NCBI RefSeq assembly: GCF_002258785.1
Contig: NZ_NOYI01000021.1
Span: 1-64,000, forward strand
From: Rhodococcus sp. 06-235-1A
Lineage (GTDB): Bacteria; Actinomycetota; Actinomycetes; Mycobacteriales; Mycobacteriaceae
Direction: 5' to 3'
Length of the DNA: 64,000 nt
Shown here one piece after another: positions 42,011 through 62,408 of this stretch. A model generated the notes under the pieces. The model ran no database searches, had not been told where the DNA came from, and saw only the letters and a program-made list of their open reading frames with translations. Every line of letters begins with the position of its first letter. The first letter of the stretch is position 1. The position numbers and the translations under genes were made by a program.

Positions 42011-42054
42011 GGTGCCCCCAGTAGGACTCGAACCTACGACCTGCGGATTAAAAG
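42011..42054. repeat. attL core (44 bp; 3' half of tRNA-Lys)
   Basis: Identical over 44 bases to 62334-62377; the flanking bases differ at both ends. It equals the tRNA-Lys segment from the anticodon loop to the discriminator base and two following C residues. Here it is only a tRNA fragment, with no 5' half attached. Confidence 0.97.
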
Positions 42055-42098
42055 ATCCATGGTTTAGCACCGTGACCACGCTGCGGGCCGTCGCATGA
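42055..42098 (+). other. orphaned 3' end of the virion-form repressor gene
   Basis: When the prophage ends are rejoined at the att core, the repressor frame from 62071 continues through the core into this segment. It encodes DPWFSTVTTLRAVA and a TGA at 42096-42098. In the lysogen this stretch is cut off from its gene and no start codon serves it. Its tail RAVA matches the end of the integrase. Confidence 0.8.
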
Positions 42099-42239: not shown

Positions 42240-43079
42240 ATGAGCAATAACGCGACAATCGAACAGTGGGAGATCTTTCAAGTCGGGACGCGTAAGTCGG
42301 ACGTGACGGTGTCCGAGCGCATTCGGGTACTCCAGCAGTTCGAGACCGACACCGGCGTCGACCCCACTCACGCCCTACCGATCGACATCGTTCGCTGGTA
42401 CCGATCGCACCGGGACATCTGGGGACCGTCCACCCTGTACACCTACCACTCGTACCTCAAGACGTGGTTCAAATGGCTACAGCTACAAGACATTCGGCTC
42501 GATGACCCCATGCTCAAGGTCGGCACCGTCAAGCAACCGAAGCGCAAGCCCCGACCCGTTGCCGACGAACACCTGATCACCTTGCTCAACGTCAACATGA
42601 TGCACCGGACGCGCGTGATGATCCTGCTGGCAGCTCTGTCCGGTATGCGGTGCATCGAGATCGCCAAGTTCCGCGGTGACCACATCGACCTACCTCGTGG
42701 CCGGATACTCGTCCTCGGCAAGGGCGGCGATGAAGAGTGGGTACCGATTCACCCGGTGCTCGCGACGACAGCCGAGACGATGCCGGCACGTGGCTACTGG
42801 TTCGTCAGCAACTCGACACGGCCGGGGCAACACGTGCGAGCCAAGAGCGTGTCTCAGATCGTCGGAGACGCATTCCGACGCGCGAACGTGCCAGGGTCCG
42901 CACACCCGTTGCGAGCCTGGTATGCGACGACGCTGCTGGCTGACGGTGCCGATGTTCGAACGGTGCAAGAGTTGATGCGCCAAAGCTCACTCGCGAACAC
43001 ACAGAAGTACCTGCTGGCATCGGAGGAGAACAAGCGGGCCGCAATCAACAAGCTCGACCTGTACCGTGCCGTAGCCTGA
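42240..43079 (+). CDS. int: tyrosine recombinase integrase with C-terminal RAVA tail
   Basis: 279 residues. A SAM-like core-binding domain (residues 1-105) precedes the catalytic domain with SGMRCIE (Arg137), HPLRAWYAT (His222, Arg225) and Tyr257 in NTQKYLL. The usual second His/Trp (LGHSS) is Gln here (MRQSS). It integrates the phage at tRNA-Lys. The last four residues are RAVA, identical to the tail of the predicted virion-form repressor, suggesting a shared proteolysis signal. In the circular genome it lies 141 bp downstream of the repressor, same strand. Confidence 0.93.
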   Translation: MSNNATIEQWEIFQVGTRKSDVTVSERIRVLQQFETDTGVDPTHALPIDIVRWYRSHRDIWGPSTLYTYHSYLKTWFKWLQLQDIRLDDPMLKVGTVKQPKRKPRPVADEHLITLLNVNMMHRTRVMILLAALSGMRCIEIAKFRGDHIDLPRGRILVLGKGGDEEWVPIHPVLATTAETMPARGYWFVSNSTRPGQHVRAKSVSQIVGDAFRRANVPGSAHPLRAWYATTLLADGADVRTVQELMRQSSLANTQKYLLASEENKRAAINKLDLYRAVA

Positions 43080-59423: not shown

Positions 59424-59962
59424 CAGGACTGTCCATTGAGCGGGTAGGGGCAGCGGGACTCGTACTCGGCCATGCGTCGCTTCACACCTGTCAGATCAAC
59501 GCCGGCCGGACCAGTGACCACGCCAACTACGGGGTTCAGGGCCTCATCGTCGTTCCACTGGCATTCGTGGTCGTGATGCCAGCCCTTGTGGTCACCTGAA
59601 TCGGCGTGGCCGGCGTCGAGCCGGCAACGCCGTGGCTGGTCCCACTCGGTGTCGCCCGGTTCGACGTAGCGCGACGGGCACTGCGGCCGGTTCACGATCT
59701 CGCCGCCGTTCACTTCCACTGCGAGCATGTCGGCACCGTCCTGGGCGACGATGTGTAGCAACGCTTCAGCGGCCGACTCCAGCGACTTGCGCGCCGCCAC
59801 GATCGAGCCGAGCGCCTGCGTCACATTCCACCTGTGATCGTCGGTCTCGGGTAGCCGGGACAGCAGATGGTTCGCTGCGCCCTCGATCACGATGGCCGGC
59901 CCCACGAGATCCGCTACTTGGAACGATGTCGCGTCGAGCAACGTCGCTAGCTCCTTGTCCAT
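59423..59962 (-). CDS. 179-aa phage protein, Cys/His-rich C-terminal half
   Basis: N-terminal helical half (DLVGPAIVIEGAANHLL, LESAAEALLHIVAQDG), then CPSRYVEPGDTEWDQPRRCRL and GHADSGDHKGWHHDHECQW, a possible zinc-binding cluster. ATG 59962; function unknown. Confidence 0.65.
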   Translation of the reverse strand: MDKELATLLDATSFQVADLVGPAIVIEGAANHLLSRLPETDDHRWNVTQALGSIVAARKSLESAAEALLHIVAQDGADMLAVEVNGGEIVNRPQCPSRYVEPGDTEWDQPRRCRLDAGHADSGDHKGWHHDHECQWNDDEALNPVVGVVTGPAGVDLTGVKRRMAEYESRCPYPLNGQS

Positions 59963-60312
59963 CAAAACAGCACTCCTTCAGGTTGATTCGGTTCTGGGTA
60001 CGACCGCCGAACGTGGTCGGACCCGCACAATGTGAGGCCACGGGCGTAACGCACCGCAGCGGCCAGATACAGCTCAGCTTGGGGAAGGTGGATGACCTCG
60101 CACGTGCTGAGCGGAGTGCAGTACATGCCGGCCAGCAGCACCACGTCTCGGTGGTGAGCGGCCGTCGTCACCACGTACGCCGCCGTCACCGGTCGCTCGC
60201 CAAGGTCGATCGTCAGCTCGAAGTCGTATGCCTCGCAGAACTTCTCCACCGCACGATGAATCGACGGCGATCGACTGAACAACTTCACTGGCAAGCGGGC
60301 CGGAGACGACAT
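59962..60312 (-). CDS. 116-aa phage protein of unknown function
   Basis: Begins MSSPARLPVKLFSRSPSIHR from ATG 60312; alpha/beta pattern (RPVTAAYVVTTAAHHRDVVL, then LPQAELYLAAAVRYARGL). The longer open frame upstream looks like shadow sequence. TGATG junction with the next gene. Confidence 0.6.
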   Translation of the reverse strand: MSSPARLPVKLFSRSPSIHRAVEKFCEAYDFELTIDLGERPVTAAYVVTTAAHHRDVVLLAGMYCTPLSTCEVIHLPQAELYLAAAVRYARGLTLCGSDHVRRSYPEPNQPEGVLF

Positions 60313-60316
60313 CAGC

Positions 60317-60553
60317 TCACGCCCTCGGAGGCCAGGACCACTCGCCGGCCGCTGTGCCCTCGACAGCCGAGACGGTGTACTGCCCGCCACGCGGAGGGAA
60401 TACCGCCAGCTCCACCCATCCACTCTGCGGGTGGACGAACGTAACCAGTGCTGCGTGCTCCTCGAACTCACTGAGGTGTGGCGGCAGGCCGGAGTACCGA
60501 GCTTGCGTGGGGTGCGGGTGGTAGTGGACTACTCGTCCGATCGTGGGTTTCAT
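60317..60553 (-). CDS. 78-aa phage protein, GRVVHY type
   Basis: Opens MKPTIGRVVHYHPHPTQARY and ends EWSWPPRA, the outline of a small family common in actinophages (RVVHY ... ALVTFVHP ... LAVFPPRGG). AAGGAG precedes the ATG. Function unknown. Confidence 0.75.
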   Translation of the reverse strand: MKPTIGRVVHYHPHPTQARYSGLPPHLSEFEEHAALVTFVHPQSGWVELAVFPPRGGQYTVSAVEGTAAGEWSWPPRA

Positions 60554-60949
60554 TCAATCTCCTTGTTGTTGTTCGTCTCTCAGCGTTGCGCTGAGGGCCG
60601 TTGTGACGCTTCGTAGAGAGAGCAGAGGGAGTTGGGAGGGCAGGGCGTACCCCGTACCGCAAAGGCACGGGATCATCCGATCTCGGTTCCTTCGCGTCGG
60701 TCGCGTCGGTCGTCGGTCGGTTGGTGTGAACGCAAGCGCGGGAATTACTCGGCTTGCCGGGACTGGGATACTTCGAGTGCCTGATACACCAGCAACGGTG
60801 TTCCTGCCCGAGTCCGCCTTAACCAGGTCAGACACTCGAATCGGGATGGGTGCAGTGGCCCCTCTAACGGGCGACGACTGCGCTGGCTAAGCGCATCACC
60901 CGTACGTGAAAGATCCACGGGCGCAGGGACAAACGAGCAGAGGATCTAG
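60554..60949. other. non-coding interval in the early region with hairpins
   Basis: 396 bases without a convincing gene: the leftward frame 60554-60835 lacks a ribosome site and has biased composition. Hairpins: CTCAGCG/CGCTGAG near 60590; and at 60867-60903 an ACGGG/CCCGT closing pair around a perfect TGCGCT/AGCGCA stem. Promoter or terminator functions are likely. Confidence 0.5.
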
Positions 60950-61210
60950 TTACGGCATGTCATCACCGCCGTCAGGATCGAACAGAGTGGGTGGCACAGC
61001 GTCACGCTCAGCGCGTGCCCGTTCCTCCTGACACTCGGCGCAGATCTTGTCGACCGGCACCCATGCATTCGGATGGAACGGGCGTGCACACTCAGCGCAG
61101 TGCTGACGGTTCGCGTGAGGGTCGATCGGCCGGCCGCGCCGCCACCGCACCTGCGAGGCATCGACACGGCCCGGTACCGGTTTCCACGGGCCACGTACAA
61201 CATCGCCCAT
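60950..61210 (-). CDS. zinc-ribbon-like phage protein (86 aa)
   Basis: Two CxxC pairs (HCAECARPF and KICAECQEE) about 20 residues apart mark a zinc ribbon; a basic N-terminal part (GPWKPVPGRVDASQVRWRRG) precedes. It overlaps the 69-aa gene end. Perhaps a regulator or host-takeover factor. Confidence 0.7.
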   Translation of the reverse strand: MGDVVRGPWKPVPGRVDASQVRWRRGRPIDPHANRQHCAECARPFHPNAWVPVDKICAECQEERARAERDAVPPTLFDPDGGDDMP

Positions 61211-61419
61211 CACGAACTCGGCTTACCGAACTCGCGGGGCGTCAGCTTGTGGATCTCGTAGACGTTGATCTCGCTCTCGCCGAGCGCCCATGCGTGCGAC
61301 TGCGCATCCTCAGCAGCCTCACGGGTCTCGTAGACGACGCCGATCCAGTCAACAGAAACCCGCCCGGCTACATGCTCTTCCCCAAGCACGTAGCCGAGCG
61401 GGTAGTTCGTATCGCTCAC
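61210..61419 (-). CDS. 69-aa phage protein of unknown function
   Basis: Starts MSDTNYPLGYVLGEEHVAGR. Contains VYETREAAEDAQSHAW, an alpha/beta pattern seen in small phage proteins. Overlaps both neighbours by 1-4 bp. Confidence 0.6.
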   Translation of the reverse strand: MSDTNYPLGYVLGEEHVAGRVSVDWIGVVYETREAAEDAQSHAWALGESEINVYEIHKLTPREFGKPSS

Positions 61420-61598
61420 AGGAAATCGTCCTCGTGAACGACGACAGCGATCGTGATGTTCTCGGCTGCCTCAACAATCGGCGCGCTGTTGTGGTCCACC
61501 ACAGCCTTCGTGGCGTCCAGCAGTGAGCCGACCAGATGAAAGTCAGTGCCGAACTCGGGGAAGCCGAGCAGCTTGTAGCCCCACCGATCCGGGGTCAT
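61416..61598 (-). CDS. 60-aa phage protein of unknown function
   Basis: From ATG 61598: MTPDRWGYKLLGFPEFGTDF and an acidic end VVVHEDDFL. The ATG overlaps the upstream stop, and the stop overlaps the next ATG. No motif. Confidence 0.6.
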   Translation of the reverse strand: MTPDRWGYKLLGFPEFGTDFHLVGSLLDATKAVVDHNSAPIVEAAENITIAVVVHEDDFL

Positions 61599-61765
61599 CC
61601 CTGACCGCCAGCGAGGGCGTAGGCGTACAGCAGAACGAGCAGGACGCCCGCCACGCCACACGACGGCAGCAGCCACCACAGGAACGCCTTGCGGATCAGC
61701 TCACGCAACTGCGCGCCGGCCGGCCACTGCGGGCGGGCAGTCGGCGTCACGTACCGGGCGCTCAT
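61595..61765 (-). CDS. 56-aa single-pass phage membrane protein
   Basis: A 56-codon frame from ATG 61765. A basic N-terminus is followed by one helix (WWLLPSCGVAGVLLVLLYAY). ATGA overlaps on both sides show it belongs to the early operon. Too short for common annotation filters. Confidence 0.6.
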   Translation of the reverse strand: MSARYVTPTARPQWPAGAQLRELIRKAFLWWLLPSCGVAGVLLVLLYAYALAGGQG

Positions 61766-61959
61766 GCGTTCACGCCTTTGCGCTCTGCGGCTTTGGCTTC
61801 GATGTCGGCTCGGTTGAACAGTGCCGCGCCGGTAAGTCCGGGGAGCTTGGTTGCCGGCTCTAACTCACCCGACTGGACCCACCGAGTCATGGTGGCTCGG
61901 GATACGCCGATGATCGACGCCGCTTCGGGCGTACCGATCAAGTCGTCTGCATTTGCCAT
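61762..61959 (-). CDS. excisionase/Cro-like DNA-binding protein
   Basis: 65 residues of the MerR/HTH_17 type: IGTPEAASIIGVSRATMTRW, then ALFNRADIEA with the wing. It is the first gene transcribed divergently from the repressor, the place of Cro in related phages, but the fold is that of excisionases. Either or both roles are possible. Confidence 0.8.
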   Translation of the reverse strand: MANADDLIGTPEAASIIGVSRATMTRWVQSGELEPATKLPGLTGAALFNRADIEAKAAERKGVNA

Positions 61960-62070
61960 GGGAAGAACAATTACACGTTTGTAGTTCGATTGTCCATTGG
62001 ACAGTTACGAACAGACCGCGAGATTGTTTCGGTATTGCACCTTGTCGTACCTAGGTGTAATAGTTAGTAC
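61960..62070. promoter_or_regulatory. divergent promoters and operator of repressor and early operon
   Basis: Leftward: -35 TGGACA and -10 TAATTG, 17 bp apart, ending a few bases before the 61959 ATG. Rightward: TTGCAC (62035-62040), 17 bp, TAATAG (62058-62063), 8 bases from ATG 62071. Both messages look leaderless. The palindrome TGTCCATTGGACA (61991-62003) covers the leftward -35, so repressor binding would block the early operon. Confidence 0.6.
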
Positions 62071-62397
62071 ATGACGAACGCAGGGGAAGTGGACAGCGGC
62101 ATCATGGCCAAGCTGGCTTTCAACAAGCCTGACCGCATGAAGAAGTCGCTCAGCGTGACGGGTGTGACCGTGCAGGAGATGGCCGACTACCTCGGCGTGA
62201 CGCGAGGGTCGGTCGGAAACTGGATCAACGGGCGCATCGAGCCGTCGTTGCAGACCACGAGACTGTGGGCGCTGCGCACCGGCGTGCCGTTCGAGTGGTT
62301 GGAGCGTGGCGAAGTGCCAGCTCCAACCCCTCCGGTGCCCCCAGTAGGACTCGAACCTACGACCTGCGGATTAAAAGTCCGTAGCTCTACCAACTGA
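62071..62397 (+). CDS. phage immunity repressor, prophage form (108 aa)
   Basis: An HTH_XRE domain (VTVQEMADYLGVTRGSVGNW, then LWALRTGVPFEWL) is followed by a Pro-rich linker. From 62334 the frame enters the att core (GLEPTTCGLK) and ends VRSSTN, encoded antisense to tRNA-Lys. On the circular phage genome the same frame would end DPWFSTVTTLRAVA (116 aa). Integration therefore changes its C-terminus, as in integration-dependent immunity of BPs-type mycobacteriophages. Confidence 0.88.
   Translation: MTNAGEVDSGIMAKLAFNKPDRMKKSLSVTGVTVQEMADYLGVTRGSVGNWINGRIEPSLQTTRLWALRTGVPFEWLERGEVPAPTPPVPPVGLEPTTCGLKVRSSTN
62334..62377. repeat. attR core (44 bp) inside repressor and tRNA-Lys
   Basis: Same 44 bases as 42011-42054. 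It is shared by the end of the repressor frame (+ strand) and the 3' half of tRNA-Lys (- strand). The phage thus restores the tRNA and the tRNA supplies the repressor's last codons. Confidence 0.97.
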
Positions 62398-62408
62398 GCT
62401 ATAGGGGC
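62336..62408 (-). tRNA. tRNA-Lys (anticodon UUU)
   Basis: 73 nt. A 7-bp acceptor stem (GCCCCTA/TGGGGGC), D-arm, anticodon loop CTTTTAA, variable loop and T-arm GGTTCGAGTCC. The 5' part is host, the 3' part comes from the phage core. After the discriminator A the genome reads CCG, so CCA is not encoded; the original flank at attL reads CCA. Confidence 0.97.

Follow-up and report, generated by a model that had tools for sequence, protein, structure and literature searches.

A probable integration-dependent immunity switch in a Rhodococcus prophage with its attachment core inside the repressor gene

In mycobacteriophage BPs (repressor gp33), and likewise in phages of clusters G, I, N and P, attP is located inside the repressor gene, and a longer, ssrA-tailed repressor is made in the virion form and a shorter one in the prophage form, as described in the accessible part of PMC4557955. 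According to the same text, the repressor and integrase genes of BPs are co-oriented, a Cro-like gene points the opposite way, and the repressor and the integrase both carry C-terminal proteolysis signals. In the available portions of PMC9635641, PMC9934374 and PMC6109161, the phage-form repressor and the integrase of the published systems are short-lived; integrase that escapes degradation inserts the phage, whereupon the repressor loses its tail, the host-terminated repressor persists and represses the early genes, and the integrase gene is separated from the repressor promoter. The small phages of Gordonia cluster CW (about 17 kb) have a tRNA-Lys attP inside the repressor gene (PMC5559632, available in part); Jeanie and McGonagall were considered through that paper, and GMA5 and GRU3, in which the repressor gene precedes the integrase gene and the products have [AV]A ends, were read by us from their sequences. 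In the Bifidobacterium prophages Bb423phi2 and 689b-1, the integrase gene lies beside attL and the repressor gene beside attR, and attP joined in silico adds 18 residues with an ssrA-like tag (PMC6109161, accessible part). The Mycobacterium abscessus prophages prophiT36-2a and prophiT36-2b use the same device, with two repressors that enter one core in different frames (PMC9934374, accessible part). By these partly available papers, the device is already known from phages of mycobacteria, Gordonia and Bifidobacterium, with a tRNA-Lys site in Gordonia cluster CW.

We analysed a stretch of 64,000 nucleotides from Rhodococcus sp. 06-235-1A (the window; contig NZ_NOYI01000021.1). A perfect 44-bp direct repeat was found in it, with the identity stopping at both edges of the repeat (Table 1). 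The right copy coincides with the 3' part of a minus-strand tRNA-Lys(TTT) gene, which is therefore still complete at attR. Genes for integrase, terminase, portal, head, tape-measure and endolysin proteins are present between the two copies, indicating a 20.4-kb prophage in the tRNA-Lys gene. No near-identical phage record was found for it in the phage collection searched. This would fit a decayed prophage whose switch is a relic, which is compatible with the anatomy described below. The repressor, integrase, core, tRNA and main virion genes are, however, open or intact, and the virion genes of a sibling (G037) are 91% identical over 13.6 kb, its integrase being 98% identical in amino acids. 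Decay is therefore very unlikely.

Table 1. Features of the prophage ends and the putative switch in the window
Feature	Position	Strand	Remark
attL common core, 44 bp	42011..42054	+	identical to attR core
3' remnant of phage-form repressor gene	42055..42098	+	encodes DPWFSTVTTLRAVA and TGA after attP join; putative degradation tag
Tyrosine integrase, 279 aa, ends ...LDLYRAVA	42240..43079	+	PF00589 match
Xis/Cro-like HTH_17 protein	61762..61959	-	divergent from repressor
Putative operator, palindrome TGTCCA-T-TGGACA (TGTCCATTGGACA)	61991..62003	.	gap between repressor and Xis-like genes
Putative promoter of a leaderless repressor message	62033..62070	+	invariant blocks before ATG, five aligned relatives
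Repressor gene, prophage form, 108 aa	62071..62397	+	HTH_3 / CI-like head, ends VRSSTN
attR common core	62334..62377	+	inside repressor gene
Host tRNA-Lys(TTT)	62334..62408	-	intact at attR

The CI-like repressor at the right end of the prophage (HTH_3, PHROG 2328) reads rightward into the core. Its residues 1-88 form the HTH_3 / CI-like head, which is followed by the core-encoded part and six host-encoded residues, after which a host TGA closes the frame. When position 62377 was joined in silico to 42055, as at attP, the frame stayed open up to a TGA at 42096-42098 and encoded a repressor of 116 aa. The attP core therefore lies inside the reading frame, and the prophage form is the shorter one by virtue of the host stop. 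Of the remaining two frames through the core at attP, one gives an end of -RSMV and the other stops immediately. An earlier interpretation of this DNA (the sequence-only reading) had claimed that the core is in frame with the repressor, that the prophage form has 108 aa with six host residues, and that the attP join keeps the frame open to 42098 and gives 116 aa; the repeat, the frame reading and the in-silico join bore out all three, with coordinates and lengths right. Its general statement that BPs-group phages place attP inside the repressor also agrees with the accessible part of PMC4557955.

The attP-form repressor ends in -RAVA, an end that resembles the AA/VA type of ssrA tags, in line with the ssrA-like end proposed earlier, and AA/VA ends are common in the relatives. 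The integrase also ends in -RAVA, a point absent from the sequence-only reading, and this C-terminus is a putative degradation signal as well. The integrase end near R-A is conserved in many relatives, thus the RAVA common to the two proteins may be in part coincidence. The host tmRNA tag, ADSNQRDYALAA, ends in -ALAA, and the -AVA end may be recognised like this tag.

The locus differs from BPs in sequence and target. Here 14 phage-coded residues are replaced by 6 host-coded ones, whereas BPs loses 33 (PMC4557955, accessible part); the repressor end is -AVA, and the switch itself is predicted from sequence. With respect to cluster CW, no match to the core of the window was found within 12 of 44 mismatches in GMA5 and GRU3, the integrases are 30-35% identical, and GMA5 has an extra ORF between the repressor and integrase genes. 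Bb423phi2 and 689b-1 differ in host and sequence. The target of prophiT36-2a and prophiT36-2b is tRNA-Thr, and prophiT36-2a is about 40 kb. The suggestion that the same device exists here with its own tail and tRNA-Lys target was supported by layout and tail, with the qualification that the tRNA-Lys target is not new, as the available part of PMC5559632 makes clear.

The sequence-only reading would be contradicted by a free phage whose attP junction closes the repressor frame. A record bearing on this was found in a relative, G042, whose two ends carry an identical 74 bp, in which the core is joined by 30 bp from its integrase-side flank. A terminal repeat of this kind means that the record crosses an attP junction, in a circular molecule or a tandem. 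The repressor frame of G042 is open to the last base of the record (…NPVTAL); where this sequence recurs at the start of the record, it continues to RAVA and TGA; closed at the 74-bp repeat, the repressor ends in -LRAVA. The frame is thus kept open in a relative, which is not the phage of the window itself.

We consider it probable, at roughly 0.85, that the 20.4-kb prophage carries a BPs-like switch of integration-dependent immunity, and as far as sequence can tell, integration-dependent immunity is well supported here. In the circular genome the repressor and integrase genes are adjacent and in one direction, with the Xis/Cro-like gene divergent, and repressor gene, attP and integrase gene would form one rightward unit. 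The 116-aa repressor would be degraded by a host protease that reads ssrA-like tags, by analogy ClpXP, and the integrase, with the same end, would be unstable too. If the integrase persisted long enough, it would recombine attP with the tRNA-Lys gene. Integration would remove the tail, and six host codons and the host stop would substitute for it. The resulting 108-aa form, presumably stable, would silence the divergent Xis/Cro-like early gene via the operator between the two genes. Integration would also part the integrase gene from the repressor promoter, which is consistent with lasting lysogeny.

The palindrome proposed as the operator is the sole such site in the 64-kb window; when the window was shuffled 100 times, at least one such palindrome turned up in 39 of the shuffled sequences, so by itself it is unremarkable. 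G040 has the same palindrome, and G039, G041 and G042 carry TGTGCAATGCACA (TGTGCA-A-TGCACA), thus both arms are altered together between close relatives. This covariation is consistent with repressor binding at 61991-62003. Promoter scans, including the segment 62033-62070 upstream of the repressor gene, gave no consensus match, and the promoter placed there in Table 1 is a candidate from the conservation of blocks before the ATG.

The core-repressor overlap may instead have another cause, such as recombination near tRNA genes or the uncoupling of the integrase gene from the repressor promoter, with C-termini that are functionally equal and an AVA end that is chance or a weak signal. An [AV]A end can arise by chance in about 1.3-1.9% of random frame ends: among six-frame, stop-ended stretches of at least 4 residues, it was found in 25 of 1912 in the window (1.3%) and in 13 of 691 within 42055-62333 (1.9%). 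None of 49 minus-strand ORFs of at least 70 aa between 43000 and 62000 had such an end, many of the 49 being spurious.

The tails at the same core in relatives were then compared with this level. In IMG/VR, 18 records at the same tRNA-Lys core were read, and in ten of them (20.7 to 59.6 kb) both ends could be rebuilt at attP, giving 11 forms with the window. Those not rebuilt were G037, G039, G043, G047, G048 and G052 (no integrase-side core), G065 (repressor end not retrieved) and G059 (other core without a repressor). The repressor frame was defined as the frame whose long open stretch contains the HTH head. The attP form ended in -RAVA in the window prophage, G042 and G044, the tails of G042 and G044 resembling that of the window; other ends were -KSVA (G049), -LRAA (G051), -REAA (G062), -LDAA (G061) and -KTAA (G055). 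Ends outside [AV]A were found in three of the 11: -RLAS in G041 and -RPTG in G050 and G054. An [AV]A end was thus present in the repressor frame of 8/11 and in the other open frame of 1/11 (G051; Fisher p 0.004), the 11 forms not being independent because the tails of the window, G041, G042 and G044 are related. When the tails were sorted into kinship groups, 6/7 groups fit, with the related four scored by majority. G050 (L155/L156) and G054 (L161/L162) have the same tail, ...HELRPTG, despite different heads and base changes; the tail has no Ala end, the layout is retained, and the integrase ends in -FRAVA.

One region (G004) was excluded from the 11 because its span of about 60 kb resembles two elements; its outer ends give -ERNL, and its inclusion would make the count 8/12. 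The outer integrase of this region ends in -GVTV. In the middle of the stretch of about 60 kb, flanked by tRNA-Lys cores, a repressor-integrase pair was observed (L052, G004:C7:2861800-2864200, 612-1972), whose repressor stops in a core-like stretch (...NPRTLD); the next tail, in another frame, ends in -LRAAS, and the integrase in -RAIA. Such an arrangement suggests that two prophages meet here, or that the element is a hybrid.

Annotated phages were also compared. The repressor matched 151 phage records (E up to 0.01) and the integrase 285 (E up to 1e-10), and 15 annotated loci were chosen by the author from these match lists. BlueFeather and Berka were set aside, having no integrase in the stretch examined, which left 13 loci. 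In all 13 the repressor gene precedes a tyrosine integrase gene, with an intervening ORF in GMA5 and Bunker. The C-termini at such loci had been proposed earlier as a check, and the repressor ended in AA or VA in 12/13, the exception being Whack, a Rhodococcus phage with an integrase 29% identical to that of the window, in which the repressor gene likewise comes first and the ends are -SDS (repressor) and -DDL (integrase). The integrase ended in AA or VA in 11/13; that of Butters ends in -AAS. Papers on integration-dependent immunity give terminal AA as the tag end in their accessible parts, and among annotated members Phayonce and Butters, for instance, have repressors ending in VA. A copy of the core with 5-7 mismatches was found inside the repressor gene in four of the seven loci searched (Meyran, Rem711, Bunker and IdentityCrisis); EricDab, like GMA5 and GRU3, had no copy within 12 of 44 mismatches. 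In Arthrobacter phage BlueFeather (L002, 2207-2518) the repressor is 70% identical to that of the window over the HTH part; with no integrase in the stretch examined, this type of head is also found outside the switch.

Another cause for the overlap would account for G050, G054 and G041, which retain the layout without an [AV]A end. It does not account for the frame-specific enrichment in the rebuilt forms or for the AA/VA repressor ends of the annotated loci, and a stability difference is published for BPs (PMC4557955, accessible part). We therefore regard it as unlikely.

Integrase ends and a wider sample were also read. The integrase ended in [AV]A in 13/17 IMG/VR records read, the four exceptions being G043 and G062 (-RAIA), G047 (-RSIA) and G059 (-DSA). 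For the wider sample, the best 80 of 550 relatives from the integrase alignment were taken, none of these 80 being above 46% identity. The region upstream of the integrase gene could be scanned at 58/80 loci, the other 22 having fewer than 100 bases before it, and 36 candidate ORFs were found in 33 loci, with an [AV]A end in 27/36, or in 16 of 25 distinct tails. Among the candidates with other ends are alternative frames and repressor-less prophage ends, and since the scanned loci overlap the named phages and rebuilt records, they do not form a separate sample.

The stretch after the core might instead be conserved as DNA, for example as arm-type or other integrase-binding sites, with the open frame incidental. 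The tail DNA is similar among relatives with no clear synonymous bias: differences between the window tail and its homologues are mostly non-synonymous, and variation is spread almost evenly over the three codon positions (8, 6 and 9 of 14), so base conservation is no proof of a coding constraint on the tail. On the other side, integration-dependent systems are reported without arm-type sites in the accessible parts of PMC9635641 and PMC6109161, and an [AV]A-ended repressor tail was also found in 5/7 records that use the other open frame of the core. PF00589 was the sole Pfam match of the window integrase (E up to 10), and three other integrases likewise gave no arm-domain match, so this comparison had no positive control. 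Conservation as DNA with an incidental frame is thus hardly probable, and the immunity switch remains the preferred reading.

The core is entered in the same frame as in the window by twelve heads and in the other open frame by eight; where the host flank is included, the two frames end at different stops, after KVRSSTN or KSP. Sorting by eye at about 70% identity divided these 20 heads into 12 groups. Counting unrelated repressor heads was attempted and dropped, since BLAST unites 19/20 in one family. The twentieth, at the right end of G004, had no Pfam match at E up to 0.01, thus it is not established as a repressor.

Between the window and its sibling G037 (L337), most of 59.9-62.3 kb (59920-62296), including the repressor head, was unaligned as DNA, and the two heads are 38% identical as protein. 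It looks as if immunity specificity was exchanged beside a fixed core; divergence of the heads in place would be the alternative to exchange. We also considered that the integrase-side tail at this tRNA-Lys core could be a reusable tag cassette, with the integrase side re-tagging divergent heads in either frame. A tag-like tail in both open frames was found in 1/11 rebuilt forms, and we hold this idea to be doubtful. If it were true, head exchange would alter immunity specificity with the switch retained. The one form concerned, G051 (L157/L158), has Ala-ended tails of -RLRAA in the repressor frame and -LRSVA in the other.

In full-text searches naming Rhodococcus, no Rhodococcus prophage with such a system was described in the titles and abstract openings among the matches listed, and the accessible part of PMC10023795 does not mention integration-dependent systems. 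The prophage of the window and its relatives extend a well-studied type of genetic switch by one more group of prophages, which confirms the type and is no surprise for the field. They also form a natural series at one core: the integrases are related, the heads are divergent, two frames are in use, and the usual tail is missing from three members. Such a series could reveal what the tail contributes to the lysis-lysogeny decision.
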